In this document: one piece after another, positions 17,471 through 30,277 of the stretch
Layout of the letters: every line of letters starts with the position of its first letter
Position numbering within the stretch: the stretch's first letter is position 1
Virus record (IMG/VR): IMGVR_UViG_3300046170_000178
Coordinates: 1-30,277 of that record
Strand: one strand, 5' to 3'
Source of the DNA: a virus
DNA: 30,277 nt
Program-made: the position numbers and the translations under genes
The notes under the pieces: model-generated
What the model was told of the DNA's origin: nothing
The model's database searches: none
What the model saw: the letters and a program-made list of their open reading frames with translations, nothing else

Positions 17471-20400
17471 ATGGCAGAATTACCACTAGACCAAGCCGTT
17501 CCAAGGTTTAAGGCTAACGAGGACAGATTAGACACGTTTGTTAATTCAGCGACAGGTTATACAACATCTGGTGGCACATCAGTACAATCTATACAGCAAT
17601 TTCTTGCGAGTATTGGCAGTAATGGCATTGACTTTGTTGATAATGCTAAAGCCCGATTTGGCACAGGTAATTACCTAGAAATATATCATAGTGGTTCAGG
17701 TAGTTTTATACGAGATACAGGCACAGGCGACTTAACAATTGATGGCAGTGCAATAAGTATACAGACGGCTAGTGCAGAGCGTGTAAGCGTATCGGCATCA
17801 GGCATAGACGTTACTGGAACTGTTGAGTTTGATGGACTATCAGGTACAGGCACAGTTACAATTACAGACATTGCCGACGAAGATAATATGGCATCAAATA
17901 GTGCCACAAAACTAGCTACACAGCAGTCAATCAAAGCATATGTAGACGCGCAGGTAGGTACAGCAGATACCTTATCAGAGGTACTAGGGCTTGGTAATAC
18001 TACAGGCAGTAATAACATAGAAGTTACAACAGCACAGAAAGTACAGTTTAGAGATAGTGCTATTTATATAAATTCTAGTGCAGATGGACAATTAGATTTA
18101 GTGGCTGATACAGAGATACAAATAGCGGCCACAACAGTAGATGTGAATGGCGTATTAGATGTATCTGGAAATATAGTTGTTGGCGGCACAGTAGATAGTC
18201 GTGACTTAGCGACAGACGGCACAAAGCTTGATGGTATTGAAGCAGGTGCAACAGCAGACCAGACAGCCGCGCAAATCAAAACAGCGTATGAAAGTAACAG
18301 TAATACAAACGCATTTACAGATGCAGACCATACAAAATTAGACGGAATAGCTACAGGTGCAGATGTAACACTAGATGAAATATCGGCAGGTGCAAATGTG
18401 GCAATTTCCGCAGGTGGTGTTATTAGTGCAACTGCAAGTGGTGGTATTACAAATGTAGTAGACGACACGTCACCAGAGTTAGGTGGAGACTTAACGCTTA
18501 ATTCACACGATATTATAGGCACAGGTAATATAGATGTAACAGGTAATATAGAGGCAAGTGGTAATATATCTTTACCAGACAATAGTGAAATAAGAGTTGG
18601 TACGGGTAACGATTTAAAAATATCACATAATGCCACAAATAGTATTATCACAAATAGTACAGGTTTTCTCGATATAAGGTCAGATACAGTACACATTGAT
18701 AATGCCGCAAACAATGAGAAAATGGCACAGTTTACTGCTAATGGTTCTGTTGATTTATATTATGACAACGCTAAGAAACTTGAGACAACATCTGTTGGTA
18801 TAGATGTAACAGGTACAGTTGTTGCTGATAAAATGTTTGTTGAAGGTACAGCTGATTCAAGGCAATGGGAAGCAGGTTCTGCAGGACAGAAGCTAGCTAT
18901 ATACGCCTATGATAACAGTACATTCTATCACAGATTAGAAACAGGTAATGCTACTAATTACCAGTGGGGTACTTATGATAACATTCCAATTAACACTATT
19001 ACTAATAACACTATTAAGACAACTCTATTAGGTAATGGTAATTTTGGCGTAGGGACTTCAAATCCGACTTCACTTTTACATTTAGCGTCACCAGCACCTT
19101 ACATCACTTTCGAAGATACTGATAACAATCAAGATTGGCAAATACAGGCAACTGCGTGGTTTGCTATACGTGACCAAACTGCAAACGCAGAGCGTATGCG
19201 TATTGATAGCTCAGGTCGCGTGGGCATAGGAACTACGTCACCATCTGTAAAGCTACAAACAACTGTTGCAAACTCCTCTACAGAGGCAATAAGAATTACT
19301 AACGATACAGATGCAGTCAGAACGCATATGTATCCTGCGGAGATACAAGCGCATAATTCTAATTTAACGTTAAATGCTAATGATGGTGGTTTTGCAACTG
19401 TTATTAAAGCAGCAGGCGCAGAACGTATGCGTATTAATAGTACGGGTATAGATGTAACAGGTGCTATAGATGTTGCTACATCAGGTGCTTCTAATTCATC
19501 TAAGGGCCTTGCTATTGCTACTAGCGGTACTAACTTTGAAAGCGATGGCGGTATAATAAGTATAGACCATGCGGCAAGTGGTGCTGTTACAGGCGGTTAT
19601 TTTAGTAAGTACAGTGCAGGTGGTACATTACGTCATTCGATTAAAGGTGATGGTAAAGGTTACTTTGCAGGTGGATTAGATGTAACAGGTGCTATCACTG
19701 GTGATGCATTAACTGTAGCTACAACGGCGTCTAATGGTGTTACAATAAATGCGCACGATAATGCAACTACAACATATCCTCTTAAGGTATCCAATGCGGC
19801 AGGTTCAGGTAATCTTGAACTTGGTACATATGGTATAAACAACAACATTGATTTAAAACTACAAAGAGGTGGTAGTACAAAACTTACTGTTAATGCCTCT
19901 GGTATAGATGTAACAGGTGACTTAATAGTATCAAGTACAATAGAAGTTGGTTCACTAACTCCTAACCAAGATGGTGCAATCGAAGTTGGTGTAATAGCAT
20001 TAGGCACACCTGCTATAGCATCTACAACAAGTAGCACAGGACTAATGAACCATATCATCTTTGATAATCCAAATGGTGTTGTTGGTAAAATAAACACAAA
20101 TAACTCAGCAACTAGCTATCTTACAAGCTCAGACTATAGATTAAAAACTGATGTACAAGCAATGTCAGGCTCTATTGATAGGCTTAAAGCACTAAGACCC
20201 GTCAACTTTGAATGGGTTGTTGATGGCACGAGAGTAGATGGTTTCTTAGCACATGAAGCACAAGAAGTAGTGCCAGAAGCAGTTGATGGCGAAAAAGATG
20301 CAATGCGTGACCAACAGTATGTTGAAAGCGAAGCAACAGGTGACATATATACCCCTGCTGTTGAGGCTACATATGAAACAATACAAGTTGAGCTAACACC

Positions 20401-20806
20401 TGCTGTTGAGGCCGTTTATGAAACAGTGACAGTAGAGATAAGCCCTGCTGTTGAAGCTACATATGACGATGATGGCAATGAACTTACACCTGCTGTTGAA
20501 GCAATTACGGAGGAACAGGAACAACTTGTTACTCCTGCTGTTGACGCAACCTATGAGGAGCAACAACAAGAGCTAACCCCTGCTATTGATGAGATTATAC
20601 ATAGCGCAGATGTTGTAGAGCCAGATACACTTGAAGAAGGTCAGCGTTGGCGCGAAACAACAGAGAAGGTTATGGCAACACGTCAAGTTCCAGATTACCA
20701 AGGCATCGACCAAAGTAAGATTGTGCCTTTACTTACATCTGCATTGCAAGACGCTATTGCTAAGATTGAAGCACTAGAAACACGACTAGAGGCACTAGAG
20801 GCATAA
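17471..20806 (+). CDS. Tail fibre with C-terminal S74 self-cleaving chaperone
   Basis: The 1111-residue product is a trimeric fibre. It has marine-phage-type modules (KLDGIEAGATADQTAAQIKT, then ADHTKLDGIATGADV) near residues 250-305 and at least five GIDVTG-type repeats spread over residues 110-820. The C-terminal intramolecular chaperone starts at SSDYRLKTDVQAM. Ser887 is the expected self-cleavage site, giving a mature fibre of about 886 residues and releasing about 225. The chaperone holds six 15-residue repeats (from residue 961) and ends in a coiled coil (IEALETRLEALEA). AGGAG at 17459-17463 overlaps the upstream stop. The protein probably decides host range with gpJ. Confidence 0.85.
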   Translation: MAELPLDQAVPRFKANEDRLDTFVNSATGYTTSGGTSVQSIQQFLASIGSNGIDFVDNAKARFGTGNYLEIYHSGSGSFIRDTGTGDLTIDGSAISIQTASAERVSVSASGIDVTGTVEFDGLSGTGTVTITDIADEDNMASNSATKLATQQSIKAYVDAQVGTADTLSEVLGLGNTTGSNNIEVTTAQKVQFRDSAIYINSSADGQLDLVADTEIQIAATTVDVNGVLDVSGNIVVGGTVDSRDLATDGTKLDGIEAGATADQTAAQIKTAYESNSNTNAFTDADHTKLDGIATGADVTLDEISAGANVAISAGGVISATASGGITNVVDDTSPELGGDLTLNSHDIIGTGNIDVTGNIEASGNISLPDNSEIRVGTGNDLKISHNATNSIITNSTGFLDIRSDTVHIDNAANNEKMAQFTANGSVDLYYDNAKKLETTSVGIDVTGTVVADKMFVEGTADSRQWEAGSAGQKLAIYAYDNSTFYHRLETGNATNYQWGTYDNIPINTITNNTIKTTLLGNGNFGVGTSNPTSLLHLASPAPYITFEDTDNNQDWQIQATAWFAIRDQTANAERMRIDSSGRVGIGTTSPSVKLQTTVANSSTEAIRITNDTDAVRTHMYPAEIQAHNSNLTLNANDGGFATVIKAAGAERMRINSTGIDVTGAIDVATSGASNSSKGLAIATSGTNFESDGGIISIDHAASGAVTGGYFSKYSAGGTLRHSIKGDGKGYFAGGLDVTGAITGDALTVATTASNGVTINAHDNATTTYPLKVSNAAGSGNLELGTYGINNNIDLKLQRGGSTKLTVNASGIDVTGDLIVSSTIEVGSLTPNQDGAIEVGVIALGTPAIASTTSSTGLMNHIIFDNPNGVVGKINTNNSATSYLTSSDYRLKTDVQAMSGSIDRLKALRPVNFEWVVDGTRVDGFLAHEAQEVVPEAVDGEKDAMRDQQYVESEATGDIYTPAVEATYETIQVELTPAVEAVYETVTVEISPAVEATYDDDGNELTPAVEAITEEQEQLVTPAVDATYEEQQQELTPAIDEIIHSADVVEPDTLEEGQRWRETTEKVMATRQVPDYQGIDQSKIVPLLTSALQDAIAKIEALETRLEALEA
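20351..20620 (+). repeat. Six 45-bp repeats encoding 15-residue TPAVEA units
   Basis: Units start at 20351, 20396, 20441, 20486, 20531 and 20576. Each begins ACN-CCT-GCT-GTT-GA or a close variant (AGC in the third, ATT in the sixth) and encodes (T/S)PA(V/I)(E/D)A followed by an acidic strand-like stretch. The first two differ by few residues, the last is the most diverged. They lie inside the S74 chaperone domain. Confidence 0.85.
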
Positions 20807-20812
20807 TGATCT

Positions 20813-20850
20813 TATGTAGTAGTAAAGGTAGTATGTAGTAGTAAAGGTAG
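20813..20850 (+). repeat. Perfect 19-bp tandem repeat TATGTAGTAGTAAAGGTAG
   Basis: Two identical copies occupy 20813-20831 and 20832-20850, in the gap between the fibre gene and the next gene. The AAAGGTAGG made by the second copy and its flank could serve as ribosome binding site for the ATG at 20857. A near copy with one mismatch lies at the right edge of the window (30260-30277). Confidence 0.85.
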
Positions 20851-22401: not shown

Positions 22402-23583
22402 ATGGGTAAAACAAATTCAAGTAAAATAAATTGGTTAGACTTAAAAGAATATTGTATTAATCAACGCGAGTTAGAAGTAATTACTGCGCGTGCAGTTGAT
22501 GATACAGTTGACGATACAGCCGCGAAATTTGGTTTATCTGTTAGAGCTATACATTCAATATCAAGTTCAGTTAAAGCTAGAGCCGCACGCAGAGGCCATG
22601 CACCAGAGCATGACATGACTGCGACTGCGCCCGATGGCTTTCAGGTTAAAGGTGTAAGCACTTATTATAATGCAAACGGACAGCCAACAGGTCAATGGGT
22701 AAAAACTATCGGCGATAAACAGCGACAACATGAAATTATGTTATTAGCTATTGAAGAAACGCATAAAAACTATAAGCCATTCAAGCCAAGCCCTAAAGTA
22801 AAGCACACTGATAAAGACTTACTATCATTGATTACGATTACCGACTTCCACTTGGGTATGTATGCTTGGGAAGCAGAAACAGGTGACGATTGGGACGTAA
22901 ATATAAGTAAACGTGTATTTCTCAACGCAATATCAGATATGATAGAAGCCTCACCTAAAGCTGATACAGGCGTGCTTTGTCAATTAGGTGACTTTCTACA
23001 TTTTGATGGCATAACGGCTATTACGCCGATGTCAGGGCATATTCTTGATGCTGATACGCGCTATAGTAAGCTTGTTGAGCTAACAATAGAGATAATGACA
23101 CAAGCTGTCCACATGATGCTTAAAAAGTTTGGCAAGGTTGTAGTGGTACAAGCAGAAGGCAACCACGATATGTCAGGTTCAATTTGGCTTAGAAAGCATA
23201 TAAAATATGTATTTAGTCAAGACGATAGAGTAGAAGTAATTGACAACGAATTTCCTTACTACGCTTATTTACATGGTGAGATATTATTGGGCTTCCATCA
23301 TGGACATAAGAAACGAATGGCACAACTGCCAAAGCTATTTGCGAGTGAGCCACGTTTTAGAAAGCTATGGGGAAAAGCAACACAGGCTTACATTCACACT
23401 GGCCATATGCACCACGAGCGCACAGTTGAAGATGCAGGAGCAATAGTCGAGCAACACCCAACATTATCAGCCAGAGATGCCTATGCGGCTAGAGGCGGTT
23501 GGGTATCAGCAAGAGGTGCTAAAGTGATTACATATCATTCTAAACTTGGCGAGGTACACCGAACAACCGTTCGGCCACGTTAG
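22402..23583 (+). CDS. Phage metallophosphoesterase with N-terminal HTH region
   Basis: The 393-residue product has all calcineurin-like phosphoesterase motifs: D148-x-H150 (TDFHLG), G196-D197 (LGDFLH), G253-N-H-D256, H300-G-H302 and G334-H335-x-H337. These hold two metal ions. The N-terminal 65 residues look like a helix-turn-helix of sigma-factor or LuxR type (DDTAAKFGLSVRAIHSISSS) followed by KARAARRGHAPEHDM, an arrangement I recall from other phage members. The substrate is unknown; DNA-end processing or cyclic-nucleotide hydrolysis are options. The gene is the last of the rightward late block and its end overlaps the convergent leftward gene by 44 bases. Confidence 0.8.
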   Translation: MGKTNSSKINWLDLKEYCINQRELEVITARAVDDTVDDTAAKFGLSVRAIHSISSSVKARAARRGHAPEHDMTATAPDGFQVKGVSTYYNANGQPTGQWVKTIGDKQRQHEIMLLAIEETHKNYKPFKPSPKVKHTDKDLLSLITITDFHLGMYAWEAETGDDWDVNISKRVFLNAISDMIEASPKADTGVLCQLGDFLHFDGITAITPMSGHILDADTRYSKLVELTIEIMTQAVHMMLKKFGKVVVVQAEGNHDMSGSIWLRKHIKYVFSQDDRVEVIDNEFPYYAYLHGEILLGFHHGHKKRMAQLPKLFASEPRFRKLWGKATQAYIHTGHMHHERTVEDAGAIVEQHPTLSARDAYAARGGWVSARGAKVITYHSKLGEVHRTTVRPR

Positions 23584-23842
23584 CCGCTTGCTTATAGTTT
23601 ACTTCGTGCTTCTCACAGATAGCATAAAACTCAGTTGCCTTATCAGCACCATACGTCGTGTATGACGACCAGTTTAATGTCTCAATGAAGTTAAATTTGT
23701 TAGTGTAGACATCACGTCTGAATAAATGGAAACTATACTTCAGACAGTCATCGTCCTCATGAACAAGCTCTTGGTTAAGAAAGTAGATGTCCATATATTC
23801 GTCAATGTTATCCCGCCAGTTCCATGTTTGTATAAAAGCCAT
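23540..23842 (-). CDS. Unknown 100-residue protein, leftward operon
   Basis: I do not recognise this acidic, aromatic-rich protein (IQTWNWRDNIDEYMDIYFLN at its start). The C-terminal part (KHEVNYKQAANVAERLFG) is helical. It is the last gene of a three-gene leftward operon, beginning right at the end of the HNH gene (23842 shared), and its 3' end overlaps the phosphoesterase gene on the other strand by 44 bases. A continuous frame, coupled start and an AGGAGATAGAC-like site upstream support a real gene. Confidence 0.7.
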   Translation of the reverse strand: MAFIQTWNWRDNIDEYMDIYFLNQELVHEDDDCLKYSFHLFRRDVYTNKFNFIETLNWSSYTTYGADKATEFYAICEKHEVNYKQAANVAERLFGVPRQV

Positions 23843-24249
23843 TAGTCTATCTCCTTTATGTTTGGTTTATAAGTATTGCCAAATCCTCTTGATTGTATCT
23901 TGCTACGACCTTGGATTTGTTTTTTCTCTTTGTTAGACTTCTTAGTCGTTTTTAGTAGCGAACGTAACTTTTTACGTGCTAGACTATCTGCTTTATCTTT
24001 CTTAATTGCACACTTAATGCAGGTCAATGAGATATTACGCAATTCGTGTTTTCCACCCATAGAGCGTTGATGTATGTGTTCCTCTCGTATATGCCTTGCC
24101 TTAAATACTAAAGGCTCTTTACAAGTCGCGCATTTACCATCTTGCTCTATCAATAGTTGACCAAACTGCATTTTAGTTAGTGGTTTAAATTTAACATAGT
24201 CGGGATGGTCAGACAGCCTCATAATCGCCTCTAATTGCTTTGCTAACAT
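23842..24249 (-). CDS. HNH endonuclease-like protein
   Basis: The 135-residue product has a zinc-bound HNH fold: C40-x2-C43 (CATCKEPL) and C77-x2-C80 (CIKC) frame the ExH block around E57-H58 and N72 (EEHIHQRSMGGKHELRN). The C-terminal tail is strongly basic (LKTTKKSNKEKKQIQGRSKI) and ends near SRGFGN, a tail I recall from other phage HNH proteins. The residue after C80, usually His or Asn, is Ala, so activity needs checking. HNH proteins of phages act in packaging, as homing nucleases or as host-DNA nucleases. Starts inside the upstream 60-residue gene (41-base overlap). Confidence 0.75.
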   Translation of the reverse strand: MLAKQLEAIMRLSDHPDYVKFKPLTKMQFGQLLIEQDGKCATCKEPLVFKARHIREEHIHQRSMGGKHELRNISLTCIKCAIKKDKADSLARKKLRSLLKTTKKSNKEKKQIQGRSKIQSRGFGNTYKPNIKEID

Positions 24250-24391
24250 CAGCCTTTAATCTCTTAAGCCATTTATGTTGATCGCGTCTATCACGTCTTA
24301 CAACGGCGTCACGATATTTAAATCGAGTGTAGTAGTAATGGTTAGTATAAAAAGTTGTAGTTCCTTTTTTGTCTATACGTTGTTCTAACAT
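24209..24391 (-). CDS. Unknown 60-residue basic protein, first gene of leftward operon
   Basis: I do not recognise this short protein. It is rich in Arg, Lys and Tyr (FYTNHYYYTRFKYRDAVVRR, then DRRDQHKWLKRL), so nucleic-acid binding is plausible. The start is well supported: GAGAGGA (24397-24403 on the opposite strand) lies five bases before the ATG, and a leftward promoter candidate lies about 30-55 bases upstream. As the first gene opposite a Cro-like gene it takes the place where other phages have a repressor. Confidence 0.65.
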   Translation of the reverse strand: MLEQRIDKKGTTTFYTNHYYYTRFKYRDAVVRRDRRDQHKWLKRLKADVSKAIRGDYEAV

Positions 24392-24419
24392 TGTTATCCT
24401 CTCAAATAGTTATACATAC

Positions 24420-24447
24420 AAAATACATATTAATTATGTTAGGTCAA
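24420..24447 (-). promoter_or_regulatory. Candidate leftward early promoter
   Basis: On the minus strand TTGACC (plus-strand GGTCAA at 24442-24447) is followed after 16 bases by TATTTT (plus-strand AAAATA at 24420-24425). That is five and four matches to the consensus hexamers. The predicted transcript starts about 20 bases before the 60-residue gene. Confidence 0.5.
24425..24439. promoter_or_regulatory. Operator-like palindrome ACATA-N5-TATGT
   Basis: ACATA at 24425-24429 and TATGT at 24435-24439 are inverted copies spaced by five bases, between the -10 and -35 hexamers of the leftward promoter. Further copies of ACATA at 24414-24418 and TATGT at 24455-24459 flank it. It is a reasonable binding site for the Cro-like protein encoded next door, but in AT-rich DNA such words are common. 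Confidence 0.35.
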
Positions 24448-24490
24448 TGCATAATATGTAAATAAATTCCCATATTTAGGAAATTAATTC

Positions 24491-24518
24491 TTGCAATAGG
24501 TTTGATTATGGTTAATAT
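24491..24518 (+). promoter_or_regulatory. Candidate rightward early promoter
   Basis: TTGCAA at 24491-24496 and TAATAT at 24513-24518 are 16 bases apart, with four of six consensus matches each. A transcript would start near 24525, just before the ribosome binding site (AAAAGGA, 24536-24542) of the Cro-like gene. The region 24392-24549 holds no gene. Confidence 0.4.
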
Positions 24519-24549
24519 GATTATATTACAAACTCAAAAGGAACGTAGT

Positions 24550-24765
24550 ATGAAACTAACAATAACAAACATTATAGAAAGGTGCGGAGGTAGCAAGATC
24601 ATTGCAAGACAATGTGATGGACTGCAAGCTGATAGCATCAGAAAGTGGGTGGGCAATGGTATACCAGAGAAACACTGGACACCAATCTGCAAGCTACATG
24701 GCAAGCGTCTTAATGCTAATAAGTTACACGATCTAAACGAAAGCATAAGAAATGCTAAACAGTAA
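24550..24765 (+). CDS. Cro-like (YdaS-type) transcription regulator
   Basis: The 71-residue product from ATG 24550 has a helix-turn-helix in residues 14-40: GGSKIIARQCDGLQADSIRK followed by WVGNGIPEKHW. The GIPxxHW ending is typical of Cro/YdaS-type proteins. A start at 24502 (TTG) would add residues upstream of a good ribosome binding site (AAAAGGA at 24536-24542), so 24550 is preferred. It heads the rightward early operon and faces the leftward operon, where Cro proteins normally sit. It probably binds sites in 24392-24549 and switches early transcription. Confidence 0.8.
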   Translation: MKLTITNIIERCGGSKIIARQCDGLQADSIRKWVGNGIPEKHWTPICKLHGKRLNANKLHDLNESIRNAKQ

Positions 24766-25027
24766 AAAAACAAAATGCAGTGAATGTAAGTCACGCTATG
24801 ACAAACGCGATATGCGTTATGAGCAAGGTGTTGTAGTCTGTTATGATTGCTATTACACGCCAATAAGAGCCGAACTAACACTGCTTGATGTCGAGCTTAT
24901 GCACAAGTCAGAACAAGAACTGTTAATGGCAGAAAGCAAAAAAGAATTAATTAACTTGTTAGTGATGATAACACTAACAGCAACATTACTAGCAACTGCA
25001 ATAGCGCTTGCTATATTAGCTATCTAG
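24752..25027 (+). CDS. Zinc-ribbon membrane protein
   Basis: The 91-residue product has C9-x2-C12 and C30-x2-C33 (CSEC, CYDC), forming a zinc ribbon, a charged helical middle, and one C-terminal membrane helix (about residues 68-91, NLLVMITLTATLLATAIALA). It starts 14 bases before the end of the Cro-like gene. No family is recognised. A tail-anchored zinc-ribbon protein expressed early could act at the inner membrane, for example to block superinfection, but the sequence does not prove this. Confidence 0.7.
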   Translation: MLNSKKTKCSECKSRYDKRDMRYEQGVVVCYDCYYTPIRAELTLLDVELMHKSEQELLMAESKKELINLLVMITLTATLLATAIALAILAI

Positions 25028-25038
25028 GGAATAAAAAA

Positions 25039-25629
25039 ATGAGTAAATCAGAGAGTACAAAAGAACTACATAAAGCATTATTAAAAGCAACACCAGAATT
25101 TCCCCCAATTACATTTAATGCGGCGGTTAAATATGGTAAGACTAATTTTCAGTATGCAAATATAACAAGTATATTAGATGCAGTACAGCCAGTCTTAACT
25201 AAATATGGCCTAACTTTATGGCACAGCATGGACAGTATAGAAGATGGTATTGTCAAATTTAGTTCAATACTAACACACGCGGAGAGTGACCAATTTATAA
25301 AGTCATATATATTTATGCGGCCAGTTTCAATGTCGCCAAACGATATGGGTGCTGTTCAGACGTACGCAAGAAGATACTGCACAGTTGCATTACTAGCACT
25401 TAGAACTGTTGACAATGACTATAGTGAGATAGCGGCACGAGGTACAGATCAAGAACTGTTAGAACATTACAGCAAGCTTTTTAGCAGTGCAAAAGATGTT
25501 AACGAGCTAAATGGTTATGCAATGGAGCTAGCTAAGTTAAAGTTACCAAGCGGTAAGACTAAGACAGAGCTAAACAATTATTACAGTCAGATTAAAACTA
25601 AATTAGGGGCAAAAACAAATGTTAATTAA
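25039..25629 (+). CDS. erf: ERF-family single-strand annealing protein
   Basis: The 196-residue product belongs to the ERF annealases that pair complementary single strands in phage recombination. The N-terminal block ITSILDAVQPVLTKYGLTLW and the diagnostic GAVQTYARRYCTVALLALRT followed by DNDY are present. It stands directly before the exonuclease gene, whose ATG overlaps its end by 11 bases, forming a Red-like pair. The annealase and the exonuclease would together drive double-strand-break repair and concatemer formation. Start at ATG 25039 after a weak GGGA site. Confidence 0.85.
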   Translation: MSKSESTKELHKALLKATPEFPPITFNAAVKYGKTNFQYANITSILDAVQPVLTKYGLTLWHSMDSIEDGIVKFSSILTHAESDQFIKSYIFMRPVSMSPNDMGAVQTYARRYCTVALLALRTVDNDYSEIAARGTDQELLEHYSKLFSSAKDVNELNGYAMELAKLKLPSGKTKTELNNYYSQIKTKLGAKTNVN

Positions 25630-26257
25630 TGCAGTAGAACAAGGTTCACCTGAATGGTTTGCACTTAAGGCGGGTAAAATCAGTGCTAGTAGAGTAGGTA
25701 ATCTATTTTTAGGTAAGTCAACAGCAACTAGAAACAATCTTATTGCCAGTTTGGTTAGAGAAAGACTTACAAAAACATATTCACAAAATACTTACACAAG
25801 CAAGGCCATGGAACATGGTAGTGAGACTGAGGAGGAAGCCAGACAATACTACAGCATGGTAAACGACGTTCATGTCCAGACTTGTGGGATAGTTACGCAT
25901 GAAAAATATCCGTTCATAACAGTGTCACCAGATGGCTTGGTAATGCAAGATAACAAAATTAGCTATCTGCTAGAGATAAAATGCCCTTTTGCAGATGCTA
26001 TGCACTTAAAATACTACACAACTGGACATCATGCCAAGCAATACAAGTATCAACTTGGCTTACAGATGATGGTATGTGACTTAGATAGAGTTGACATTGT
26101 GAGTTACGACAACAGATGGCCAACAGATATGGTCATGGCAACAGTTACAGTAGAAAGAGATCAGGTGTTGGAAAAAGCAATACTAGATAAAATATTGGAA
26201 GCTAACGATGAAGTTAATTCAATTATCAAATCACTAAACATAGGAGATAAAAAGTGA
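25619..26257 (+). CDS. YqaJ-type (lambda Exo-like) recombination exonuclease
   Basis: The 212-residue product resects 5' strands to make tails for the ERF protein. It has QGSPEWFALKAGKISASR (residues 8-25), an MEHGSETEEEAR helix, Asp105 in SPDGLV, the E119-x-K121 pair in LEIKCP, and Gln145 in YQLGLQMMV. These are all the catalytic positions of the YqaJ/lambda Exo nuclease family. Length is normal. Translation is coupled on both sides (overlap with the ERF end, and its TGA overlaps the SSB start region). Confidence 0.88.
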   Translation: MLINAVEQGSPEWFALKAGKISASRVGNLFLGKSTATRNNLIASLVRERLTKTYSQNTYTSKAMEHGSETEEEARQYYSMVNDVHVQTCGIVTHEKYPFITVSPDGLVMQDNKISYLLEIKCPFADAMHLKYYTTGHHAKQYKYQLGLQMMVCDLDRVDIVSYDNRWPTDMVMATVTVERDQVLEKAILDKILEANDEVNSIIKSLNIGDKK

Positions 26258-26673
26258 TAAACAAAGTAATACTAATAGGCAACATTGGAACGGATTTAGA
26301 TACCCGTACATTTTCGAACAACAATAAGGTTATGTCATTTAGCCTTGCTACGAGCGAGAAGTGGAAAGGTAAAGACGGTCAACAACAAGAGCGTACGCAA
26401 TGGCACAAGATATCTATTTTTAATGAGAACCTAATTAATGTGTTAGATAGCTATGCAGGTAAAGGTACTAAGATTTACCTAGAAGGAAAGCTACAGACAC
26501 GTAAATACCAAGACAGTAGTGGTTCAGACCGCTATGTAACTGAGGTAGTGCTAGAGCGTTATAATGGCGTTATACAATTACTATCAAAAAGTAGTAGTGA
26601 TGGTCAGCCTAAAATGAGTCCAAATCGTAAAGTTGTAGATGAATATCCGCTTGATGATGAGATACCATTCTAG
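26254..26673 (+). CDS. ssb: Single-stranded DNA-binding protein
   Basis: The 139-residue OB-fold protein begins MINKVILIGNIGTDLDTRTF and contains TQWHKISIFNENLINVL and the GTKIYLEGKLQTRKYQD block, all normal for bacterial-type SSB. It ends in the acidic tip PLDDEIPF, which recruits host and phage repair proteins. It coats single strands made by the exonuclease and during replication. ATG 26254 overlaps the exonuclease stop. Confidence 0.92.
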   Translation: MINKVILIGNIGTDLDTRTFSNNNKVMSFSLATSEKWKGKDGQQQERTQWHKISIFNENLINVLDSYAGKGTKIYLEGKLQTRKYQDSSGSDRYVTEVVLERYNGVIQLLSKSSSDGQPKMSPNRKVVDEYPLDDEIPF

Positions 26674-26675
26674 TC

Positions 26676-27092
26676 ATGGGAAAATATACGTTACAAATTA
26701 CTAATGAGGTTGAGCGCGGTAAAGCACTTGACCTTGTTAAGCGTAGTCCAATTAACACTTATATAAGCTTTCAGCGTGATAAACGTACTACAGATCAGAA
26801 TAAACTAATGTGGGCTTTGTTAACTATCATAAGTAATCAAATTAAGTTTGATGGCAACACTTGGGGTATGCACAAAGTCGGTGGCAGATATAAGCCAGAT
26901 GATTGGAAGCAATTATTTGCGGCAAGTCTATTTAAAACACAGTTTATGCCAGATTTAGATGGCGGTATGTTGCCACTAAACCCAAGCACCAGTAGTATGA
27001 CTAAGGAGCAACATAGTCAGTTATGTGAGCTTATAATTGCGCAAGCGGCCAAATGGGGTATCGAGATAAAGGACATAGAGCCTGATGCTTGA
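26676..27092 (+). CDS. ninB: NinB recombination mediator
   Basis: The 138-residue product resembles lambda NinB/Orf, which helps load recombination proteins on SSB-coated DNA. Visible blocks are YISFQRDKRTTDQNKLMWAL and RYKPDDWKQLFAASLFKTQF, both typical of NinB. The order SSB, NinB, RusA fits a recombination mediator. It starts three bases after the SSB stop and overlaps the next gene by eight bases. Confidence 0.8.
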   Translation: MGKYTLQITNEVERGKALDLVKRSPINTYISFQRDKRTTDQNKLMWALLTIISNQIKFDGNTWGMHKVGGRYKPDDWKQLFAASLFKTQFMPDLDGGMLPLNPSTSSMTKEQHSQLCELIIAQAAKWGIEIKDIEPDA

Positions 27093-27438
27093 TTTAATCT
27101 TACCATTCCCGATATCGGTCAATTCTATGTATTCTAATCATGGACGTAGGCGTATTAAATCCAAACGGTACAGGACATGGCGAGAAAAGGCTATAGAAGC
27201 TTTGCAGGGACAATATAATGGTGAGTTGTTAGATTATGACATAAAACTAGAAATAGCTCTCTCAGCGCCTTGTAAACGTCGTAGAGACTTAGATAACCAC
27301 GCCAAAGGTATACAAGATGCACTTACAGGAGCCGTAATTGTAGATGATAGTCAAATAAAGCACTTAGAGATGTACTGGATAGACAAAAGAAAGGGAGGCT
27401 TGGCAAAAATATATATTGACAAATTTATAGAAATTTAA
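27085..27438 (+). CDS. rusA: RusA-type Holliday junction resolvase
   Basis: The 117-residue product cuts four-way junctions so that branched DNA can be packaged. The N-terminal ILPFPISVNSMYSNHGRRR and the catalytic block R67-D68-x-D70-N71 with the later VDD at residues 86-88 (Asp87, Asp88) agree with the RusA active site. Length matches the family. It completes the recombination module that begins with ERF. Confidence 0.88.
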   Translation: MLDLILPFPISVNSMYSNHGRRRIKSKRYRTWREKAIEALQGQYNGELLDYDIKLEIALSAPCKRRRDLDNHAKGIQDALTGAVIVDDSQIKHLEMYWIDKRKGGLAKIYIDKFIEI

Positions 27439-27462: not shown

Positions 27463-28230
27463 ATGACTACACTGCCGTATTTTTGCTATTTTCCAAAAGA
27501 CATGGGATATAAGATAGCACACTTAACATTAGCCGAAGATGGAGCTTACCACAGGCTACTCAGACTATGTTGGACAACAACAGGTTGCACCATACCAAAT
27601 GACATTACTTGGATTGCACGTAAATGCTTATGCAGATCGCAAGATGATATAGACGTTTTACAATTAGTTTTAGACGAGTTTTTTCACATAAAAAAAGATA
27701 GATATTATAACAAAAGATTGTCGGAAGAATATGACAAGTCAAATGCAAAGCATAAAGCACGTGTTGATGCAGGAAAAAGGGGTGGTCACGCTAAGTCACT
27801 GAAAAGTAACAATAAAAGTTCTAGCAAAGCTTTAGCAAAAACAAAGCAAAGCTCTAGCAACCATAACCATAACCATAACCATAACCATAACCAGATTATT
27901 AATAATAATTTTATACCAAAGGAGCTAAACAAAAATACTAAAACTTACAAGCTAATCGAAAAGCATATGACAGGTGATGAATTAGAATTACAACTTGAGA
28001 AGTTCATTGCCTATCATACCGATAAGCAAACAAAATCAACAGACTTCAACAGACAGTGGAGAGCATGGTTACAAAACAACGTGCAATGGAAGTTAGAAAA
28101 AACAGGAGATAAGAGTGTCAAGCAATATAATACAACTACAAAACTCAAAGAAATTGGTGACAGCCGCCGTCAAAGACGGGGAGAGTTACTTAACGAGTTG
28201 CAAGCTCAAGGGTTGGCCAAGAGCATTTGA
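27463..28230 (+). CDS. DUF1376 replication protein (lambda O-like role)
   Basis: The 255-residue product starts with a DUF1376 domain (residues 1-95: AHLTLAEDGAYHRLLRLCW, then CTIPNDITWIA), followed by a Lys/Ser-rich linker, an (Asn-His)5 run, and a C-terminal domain with TDFNRQWRAWLQNNVQW. DUF1376 proteins occur in phage replication modules, where they resemble initiators. The linker DNA carries the repeat described at 27859-27892, so the gene may hold its own origin as lambda O does. AGGGA lies upstream of ATG 27463. The 3' end overlaps the next gene by 116 bases. Confidence 0.75.
   Translation: MTTLPYFCYFPKDMGYKIAHLTLAEDGAYHRLLRLCWTTTGCTIPNDITWIARKCLCRSQDDIDVLQLVLDEFFHIKKDRYYNKRLSEEYDKSNAKHKARVDAGKRGGHAKSLKSNNKSSSKALAKTKQSSSNHNHNHNHNHNQIINNNFIPKELNKNTKTYKLIEKHMTGDELELQLEKFIAYHTDKQTKSTDFNRQWRAWLQNNVQWKLEKTGDKSVKQYNTTTKLKEIGDSRRQRRGELLNELQAQGLAKSI
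27859..27892 (+). repeat. (AACCAT)5 hexamer array inside replication gene
   Basis: Five full AACCAT units (27859-27888) plus AACC are in tandem, followed at 27893-27915 by an AT-rich tract (ATTATTAATAATAATTTTAT). Units are in frame and encode Asn-His pairs, so unit loss or gain keeps the frame. Iterons next to an AT-rich stretch inside an initiator gene is the arrangement of a lambda-type origin. Confidence 0.8.
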
Positions 28231-28606
28231 TTGCGCACAAGACAAAGAATTAGCAACGCAACAAAAGCAGAACATCATACAGGTAAGAGAATACTATCTT
28301 AGTAAACTACAGCCTAGTGACCCAACTTACATTTTGGGAAAGATAGAAATATTAGAAAGCCGATACTTTGAGAAAGAGACAGACCAGACAGTACAGACGC
28401 AACTAGACCGCGAATGGATAGAGGATTTATCAGAATACCCACCTGATCTGATTGAATTAGCGTGTAATAACTGGCGTAGAAGCAGTAAGAACTATGCGCC
28501 AAGGTCAGCAGGTGTACTTATGGAAAGTGTAAAGCAAGAGTATGTAAGACGGGTTGTAACTTATCGCAAAGCCGTATCAGTTTTGGAGATCATAAATGCT
28601 GATTAA
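28115..28606 (+). CDS. Conserved phage protein after the replication gene (lambda P-like position)
   Basis: The 163-residue product starts with GTG 28115, supported by GGAGATAAGA just upstream. A later start would reduce the 116-base overlap, but I see no better site. The middle (RVREYYLSKLQPSDP-like, then ILESRYFEKET) and the block WIEDLSEYPPDLIELACNNWR resemble a helical protein I have seen behind phage replication genes in alphaproteobacterial phages. The position suggests a helicase-loading or initiation partner, but no loader ATPase motif is visible. Function is not established. Confidence 0.65.
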   Translation: MSSNIIQLQNSKKLVTAAVKDGESYLTSCKLKGWPRAFDCAQDKELATQQKQNIIQVREYYLSKLQPSDPTYILGKIEILESRYFEKETDQTVQTQLDREWIEDLSEYPPDLIELACNNWRRSSKNYAPRSAGVLMESVKQEYVRRVVTYRKAVSVLEIINAD

Positions 28607-29739: not shown

Positions 29740-30266
29740 TAGCTGAAAGGCTTAATGTTACATACGCTAGTTTACAGCTATATGCACACAGAAACAGACA
29801 TAAACTGCCAAAGAGAGGTGCGCCAAAGGTCGACAAGCCAAAAGTAGCCGTGAGGGTAGCCCGTAACGTATATAAACGATATACAGATACTAGCGAGATA
29901 GCTAAAGCCAGTAAATTGTGGCAATTACAAAAAAGCATATATGAAATACACACGACGCTGAAAATGTCGGGTAAAACCTTTATTAAAATGCGCCGCTATG
30001 CACCTAATCGCTTTCCGAAAAGAGATAGTAATAAAAACATACAAACCTATAAGCCAAAAAATGCTAATACTAAAGCAAAAATAGCTAAAGTAGGTGAGGG
30101 CTTTTATCTAAAGCACGCTATGAGCAATCAGTGGTTACATTGTTCAGGGAAAGCATTGACACTACAAAAAGCATATAGATATCGTGCGACTTGGTTGCAG
30201 TGCATTAAAATGTTAGAAACTACAAGTTATGATCTAGTTATAATACCCGAAAATAAACATATGTAG
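29658..30266 (+). CDS. GcrA-like regulator with two tandem HTH units
   Basis: The 202-residue basic product begins with a GcrA-type DNA-binding helix-turn-helix (RIWTEEKQEIAIRLWKTDLS, then HIIAERLNVTY). GcrA is the CcrM-dependent cell cycle regulator of alphaproteobacteria. Residues 17-53 and 86-122 align over 37 positions with no gap and share L, W, S, I, L and PKR, so the unit is probably duplicated. The rest (residues 145-202) is unrecognised. It has ATG 29658 with only a weak ribosome site and ends at a TAG, with TAG and TAA in the next two codons. Confidence 0.7.
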   Translation: MAKSRIWTEEKQEIAIRLWKTDLSTHIIAERLNVTYASLQLYAHRNRHKLPKRGAPKVDKPKVAVRVARNVYKRYTDTSEIAKASKLWQLQKSIYEIHTTLKMSGKTFIKMRRYAPNRFPKRDSNKNIQTYKPKNANTKAKIAKVGEGFYLKHAMSNQWLHCSGKALTLQKAYRYRATWLQCIKMLETTSYDLVIIPENKHM

Positions 30267-30277
30267 TAGTAAGGGTA
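30260..30277 (+). repeat. Third copy of the 19-bp repeat, cut by the window edge
   Basis: TATGTAGTAGTAAGGGTA matches 17 of 18 bases of the repeat at 20813-20850 and runs into the right edge. It overlaps the end of the GcrA-like gene, giving TAG TAG TAA in its frame. Confidence 0.65.

Follow-up and report, generated by a model that had tools for sequence, protein, structure and literature searches.

The replication origin of phage lambda lies within gene O, where repeats and AT-rich DNA occupy the middle of the gene between the sequences encoding the N- and C-terminal parts of the initiator (PMC7466680). The oriL of phage SPP1, which is served by the initiator G38P, the loader G39P, and the helicase G40P, lies in gene 38 and combines direct repeats with an AT-rich unwinding element inside the initiator gene (PMC6316719). 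Plasmid iterons are usually phased with the helix and located beside an A+T-rich region, as in the P1, F, and RK2 origins (PMC5043065), and plasmid-origin initiators can also hold one opened strand (PMC10797057). In the DnaA-trios and in the G/A-ATCA motif of Vibrio cholerae ori2, short repeats near the duplex sites are held single stranded by the initiator (PMC10797057). The Rac prophage of Escherichia coli has an active origin, oriJ (PMC3945230).

The DNA analyzed here (the window) is a stretch of 30,277 bases from a metagenome virus record, IMGVR_UViG_3300046170_000178, that is possibly incomplete. Judging from the sequence, positions 27822 to 27915 would be a replication origin lying within the gene that encodes its initiator, a DUF1376 protein that would bind the repeats and open the adjoining tracts; we assign this reading a probability of roughly 0.8. 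Most of the related phage genes sampled share this layout, suggesting a start site of replication for many phages and a possible role for the gene. The locus comprises the following features.

25039 to 27438, plus strand: recombination module encoding an ERF annealing protein, a YqaJ/RecE-like exonuclease, an SSB, NinB/Orf, and RusA (Pfam, PHROG).
27463 to 28230, plus strand: DUF1376 gene encoding 255 amino acids, the proposed origin-binding initiator (PF07120, phrog_9327).
27508 to 27729, plus strand: N-terminal DUF1376 domain, the proposed double-stranded-DNA-binding part (Pfam residues 16 to 89).
27822 to 27865, plus strand: four 11-bp direct repeats, proposed iterons (TRF and direct-repeat scan; relatives share the feature).
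27859 to 27894, plus strand: hexanucleotide tract (AACCAT)5 AACCAG, proposed opening or single-strand-loading tract (TRF; silent sites unchanged in 12 relatives).
27895 to 27915, plus strand: A/T-only tract, proposed DNA-unwinding element, containing the palindrome ATTATTAATAAT.
27940 to 28104, plus strand: C-terminal helical domain, possibly DnaT-like (predicted helices at residues 160 to 168, 171 to 187, and 195 to 214).
28115 to 28606, plus strand: next gene, 163 amino acids, in the position of a helicase loader and overlapping the DUF1376 gene.

The window resembles the lambda origin in having repeats inside a putative initiator gene and an A/T-rich region adjoining the candidate iterons. 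However, the lambda iterons are imperfect inverted repeats of 18 to 19 bp at steps of 20 to 24 bp, whereas those of the window are 11-bp direct repeats, and lambda O has neither a hexamer tract nor a stem-loop of the TAAN type. The direct-repeat scan used here recovered the known iterons when it was applied to lambda O. In Pfam, lambda O matched PF04492 only, whereas the DUF1376 protein of the window matched PF07120 and not PF04492; the label "lambda-type," which a sequence-only reading of this DNA had used, therefore holds as an analogy but not as a family assignment. The likeness to SPP1 oriL, drawn from its description, lies in the direct repeats and the AT-rich element within the initiator gene; SPP1 differs in carrying genes for a helicase and a loader of its own and in possessing a second origin. 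To our knowledge, the host and proteins of SPP1 are unrelated to those of the window. The direct repeats in helical phase that characterize iteron-type origins in general are also found, stepping by 11 bp in the window, and they lie beside A/T-rich DNA as they do in P1, F, and RK2. In those plasmids, the origin is located outside the rep coding sequence, and the initiators belong to another family. Window-type hexamers have a (C/T)CA core and a putative single-stranded-DNA role in common with the DnaA-trios and the ori2 motif but differ from both in step and sequence. The best reading by analogy is that a DUF1376 origin would work like lambda ori or SPP1 oriL, in another protein family and with another architecture. 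In Rac, the DUF1376 gene ydaU is followed by ydaV, a DnaC/IstB-like AAA+ gene, and the K-12 ydaU linker contains an eroded tract (score of 8) of GATACAGATAAAGAT-type hexamers together with 11-bp and 23-bp direct repeats. The hexamer tract reads GATACAGATACAGAT in Rac-SA53, compared with GATACAGATAAAGAT in the K-12 cryptic prophage. In the set of papers searched, those that mention DUF1376 are not about an origin, judging by title and abstract.

The open reading frame at 27463 to 28230 matched PF07120 with an E value of 2.8e-16 (60.1 bits, against a curated cutoff of 30.1) and the PHROG "primosomal protein" family phrog_9327 with an E value of 2.2e-23. Along the predicted protein, a winged-helix-like part is followed by a long helix, then by a linker without order, and finally by C-terminal helices. 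In the N-terminal domain, helices are predicted at residues 23 to 38, 48 to 54, and 60 to 73 and strands at residues 74 to 77 and 80 to 83, with pLDDT values of 70 to 85 over most of the domain; the three predicted helices and the beta hairpin of residues 23 to 83 thus follow one another in a winged-helix-like order. The mean pLDDT of the protein model is only 60, and comparison of the model with PDB folds gave no significant match (best E value, 0.57). Linker residues 104 to 141 are predicted to be disordered (pLDDT below 50), and the repeats sit inside this linker. The C-terminal part scored under the cutoff of 25 for PF17948 (DnaT), at 12.9 bits and an E value of 0.096.

The four copies of the 11-bp repeat begin at 27822 (TAGCAAAGCTT), 27833 (TAGCAAAAACA), 27844 (AAGCAAAGCTC), and 27855 (TAGCAACCATA), the last overlapping the first hexamer. 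TRF reported a period of 11 with 4.2 copies at 27815 to 27860, and the repeat score of the 80 bases preceding the hexamers (periods 11, 12, 22, and 23) was equaled by 0.5% of 755 80-mers from the window. These repeats had been overlooked in the sequence-only reading, which had described the (AACCAT)5 hexamers and an A/T stretch in the linker of the DUF1376 gene; both of the latter are indeed present. The hexamer array at 27859 to 27894, with 100% identity by TRF, is read in frame as (NH)5NQ. The window contains four perfect 16-base matches to AACCATAACCATAACC, whereas 0.30 matches with at most three mismatches are expected per shuffled window. Directly after the hexamers come 21 A/T-only bases (ATTATTAATAATAATTTTATA), the sole A/T run of at least 17 bases in the window. 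From the pattern of the repeats, the 11-bp copies are probably likelier sites for the initiator than the hexamers, which are probably not initiator-binding iterons; a tandem tract of 6-bp units next to A/T-rich DNA more closely resembles an opening or single-stranded-DNA-loading tract.

Close relatives of the gene were examined for conservation of the DNA as distinct from the peptide. When the window gene and 12 relatives were aligned by codon, only 1 of the 32 columns in codons 120 to 151 (27820 to 27915) varied synonymously, compared with 123 of 215 elsewhere (hypergeometric P of 9e-10; because the test assumes independent columns and takes no account of the tree, the P value is a guide to a contrast that is itself plain). 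Outside these codons, the longest run without synonymous variation was five columns. Amino acids, in contrast, varied in 17 of the 32 columns, compared with 69 of the 215 outside. Few silent changes combined with many amino acid changes indicate that the DNA, and not the peptide, is conserved, a constraint computed directly from the alignment. Variant hexamers were mostly altered at the second base (ACCCAT, ATCCAT, and AGCCAT), a residue-changing position, and the A/T tract remained A/T rich across relatives though its amino acids differed. All 18 close relatives (66 to 96% identity) contained two to six intact units together with variant units, followed by A/T-rich DNA. As contrary evidence, the sequence-only reading had named relatives in which the protein is present but the repeats and AT tract are missing; none was present among these 18, which were found by a repeat-biased search. 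That first search used the NHNHNHNH peptide and, like a scan for AAYCAY, served only as a lead because of its bias toward the repeat. The expectation that unit number could change in frame was also borne out, one relative (L014) having one unit fewer and two others (L004 and L006) having altered units. In a sister clade of four (L015 to L018; 66% identity), all four units are AATCAC and AACCAT is absent, whereas the NHNHNHNH peptide is kept, as if the array had been reexpanded from one changed unit. Bacterial genomes, when first scanned with the window family, yielded no relative.

Recurrence was measured in a set of viral DUF1376 genes gathered by the N-terminal domain alone to avoid bias (160 loci, 95 of them nonredundant), with frequencies taken from such sets and from Pfam-profile sets after thinning by shared 4-mers. 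Control windows came from the same loci and include sequence other than disordered linkers. A period-6 tract scoring at least 10 was found in the linker of 69% of the 95 genes, compared with 0.85% of 706 control windows; at a score of at least 9, 70 of the 95 genes contained a hexamer tract and 25 fell below. The main units among the 70 were AACCAG (25 genes), CTTCAC (14), AACCAC (10), AGTCAC (5), AACCAT (3), and ATACAG (3), with the consensus [A/C]N[C/T/A]CA[G/C/T]. The CA of the tract occupies codon frame 1 in 57 genes, frame 2 in 7, and frame 0 in 6, so that related DNA encodes EPEP, QPQP, PSPS, QSQS, TTTT, or NHNH at one and the same place. Codon usage inside the tracts differed from that of the same genes outside (CCG for proline, 0 versus 37%; TCA for serine, 85 versus 14%; GAA for glutamate, 96 versus 48%), and the coding strand of the tracts consists of 42% A, 38% C, 8% G, and 12% T. 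The proposal of a lambda-type origin in an initiator linker accordingly stands as regards function at the level of the DNA, given the silent-site constraint and the occurrence of tracts in three frames; its identification of the hexamers as the iterons probably does not, because the 11-bp repeats fit better.

Direct repeats precede the tract in most of these genes as well. In the 80 nucleotides before the tract, a score of at least 8 was reached in 77% of genes and 6.2% of 2,450 controls, and a score of at least 10 was reached in 47% and 1.0%, respectively. With the hexamers masked, 61 of all 95 genes scored at least 9, and 53 of these 61 had periods of 11 (26 genes), 12 (13), 22 (6), 23 (5), or 24 (3), whereas control periods were spread over all values. 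Because 11 is not divisible by three, the 11-bp repeats are not peptide repeats. A frequent repeat core in the family is AGCAATGC, for which the counterpart in the window is TAGCAAAGC. After the tract, A and T make up 76% of the first five positions and 66% of the following five, compared with a gene mean of 45%. In a Pfam-profile sample of bacterial genomes, 13 of 37 nonredundant DUF1376 genes contained a tract scoring at least 9 and 24 did not; several carried a TAAN stem-loop (L177 and L178), and 11- and 22-bp repeats were present in L196, L198, L199, and L214. The modular layout and its recurrence in the family follow from these counts, and the origin-like layout is common in DUF1376 genes but not universal. 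Four loci without a scoring hexamer tract (L363, L364, L239, and L296) have other linker repeats, such as GGTTATTTTAAATAACC in L363 and, in L296, four copies of GACGCAATGCG at 11 bp with an A/T palindrome, resembling the case in the window. Three further loci (L107, L117, and L110) contain AACCAC or AATCAT tracts in the middle of proteins without a Pfam match, and the origin layout may, from these sequences, reach beyond DUF1376.

A stem-loop is frequent downstream of the tract. Within at most 60 bases after it, 32 of the 70 genes contained a perfect stem of at least 5 bp around a TAAC, TAAA, or TGAC loop, compared with 4 of 1,947 control loop occurrences, and stems of 6 or more bp numbered 29, compared with none in the controls. 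The stem-loops include 26 different stem sequences around one loop type, which indicates that the stem sequence varies while pairing is kept. The window clade is without the GC-clamped stem-loop common elsewhere and has in that place the A/T tract with its palindrome. Read from the lower strand, the loops are GTTA, TTTA, and GTCA, and the sequence after the stem is T rich in 20 of 32 cases (5 or more T residues in 8), which is compatible both with an antisense terminator and with a strand-specific DNA hairpin. Computed folding energies favor the lower strand for TAAC-type loops and are equal for TAAA loops; the difference is under 1 kcal/mol and so does not decide strand preference.

The recombination module directly precedes the DUF1376 gene. 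In Pfam, none of the other open reading frames of the window matched a polymerase, primase, or helicase family (the PHROG tally covers the best 25 of 88 families), in agreement with the sequence-only reading, which had seen none of the three. Capture of host DnaB by the initiator, which that reading had expected on this ground, is a hypothesis here. The DUF1376 gene and the next gene share 116 bp (28115 to 28230), an overlap kept in every relative checked, and the product of the next gene matched no known family, loader families included, in Pfam, PHROG, and further profile scans. In other DUF1376 phages, this position is occupied by DnaB, primase-helicases, or DnaC- or P-like loaders. PHROG matches to DnaB or primase-helicase were found for at most 21 of 88 following genes (DnaB families with 9 and 4 members and a primase-helicase family with 8, counts that may overlap), and further following genes matched DnaC-like, P-like, and other loaders. 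Among named phages, the gene after DUF1376 is DnaC-like in PfDIW6 and Rac (ydaV) and encodes DnaB in Lbo240.

From this layout and from precedent, we infer a sequence of protein binding, opening, and helicase loading. The N-terminal winged-helix-like domain of the DUF1376 protein would bind the four 11-bp repeats, each turn of the helix offering one site, and the protein would then open the adjoining hexamer and A/T tracts. One of the opened strands, A/C rich above or T/G rich below, could be held single by the initiator, as is done by plasmid Rep proteins, RctB, and DnaA (PMC10797057). The C-terminal part of the protein, with the product of the next gene or with host factors, would then bring in the replicative helicase. 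A broader proposal, which we regard as tentative and somewhat short of even odds, is that DUF1376 proteins form a large unnamed class of phage initiators with a modular origin consisting of phased 11-bp iterons, a six-base (C/T)CA single-stranded-DNA-loading tract, and an A/T tract or stem-loop, in which lower-strand hairpins of the c(GNNA)g or c(TTTA)g type would be a strand-specific signal for helicase or primase loading. Such an embedded layout is unlike the lambda and plasmid origins, and its six-base tract and stem-loop bear on how phage initiators open DNA and load the helicase on one strand. On this reading, a domain of unknown function that occurs in many temperate phages and prophages, among them Rac of E. 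coli, has a specific role open to testing, and origins can be located by a sequence rule in phages without an annotated one.

Other explanations of the locus differ in how much of it they account for. The origin might use the hexamers themselves as the double-stranded sites of the initiator, as the sequence-only reading had it, and no other repeats of the locus are as regular or as conserved; this version is unlikely, as neighboring sites at a 6-bp step lie on opposite sides of the helix, whereas the adjacent 11-bp repeats are in phase and recurrent in the family. It is quite improbable that the region is an autoregulatory or RNA element (an operator, a Rho-loading tract, or an antisense, leftward terminator) with no origin activity. 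The coding strand of the tract is C rich and G poor, and the lower-strand stem-loop followed by T-rich sequence in 20 of 32 cases is like an intrinsic terminator, but the T-rich lower strand is also the one held by initiators in opened plasmid origins (PMC10797057). Such an element would leave the phased iterons inside an initiator gene and the A/T tract unexplained, the stem-loop is absent from the window clade, and no Rfam match was found.

Neutral slippage, by which the hexamers would be a microsatellite in a disordered linker where AACCAN gives polar residues in any frame, would fit the predicted disorder, the in-frame variation of unit number, and the presence of the AAYCAY pattern in unrelated genes. 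It is nevertheless very improbable, since silent change is also lost over the nonrepetitive part and the A/T tract, the 11-bp repeats are out of frame, 26 different stems surround one loop type, and the tracts are enriched 80-fold over control windows. A function of the NHNH peptide itself within the linker, for example, in metal or nucleic acid binding, is scarcely credible: the sister clade does keep the NH peptide with other codons (AATCAC), but QPQP, EPEP, PSPS, or TTTT stands at the same place in other families, and in the window clade the amino acids change while the silent sites do not. An origin with the 11-bp repeats as initiator sites remains the preferred reading.

A turn in GC skew, which the sequence-only reading had offered as a check, was not seen at 27822 to 27915 in the window or at the corresponding site in the complete relative DB2, and in phage Lbo240 the GC-skew minimum lies 3 kb from the site, at a switch of gene strand. 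Since GC skew tracks gene strand elsewhere and does not turn in the window or DB2, it is uninformative as an origin marker here. A G-quadruplex in the lower strand, (GGTTAT)n, was considered and rejected because sister tracts such as AATCAC and CTTCAC are without GG. Rfam and tRNA scans of the window found nothing.

Several other regions of the window were distinctive. At 23540 to 24881, short leftward genes lie at the boundary of the late and early rightward modules, and over the same interval the AT skew goes negative and the GC skew dips. Repeats of 45 bp with 76 to 78% identity occupy 20354 to 20569, near the end of a 1,111-amino-acid open reading frame (17471 to 20806). After this long tail gene, the sequence TATGTAGTAGTAAAGGTAG occurs twice in tandem at 20813 to 20850, and it occurs again, with one change, at 30260 to 30277, the very end of the contig.
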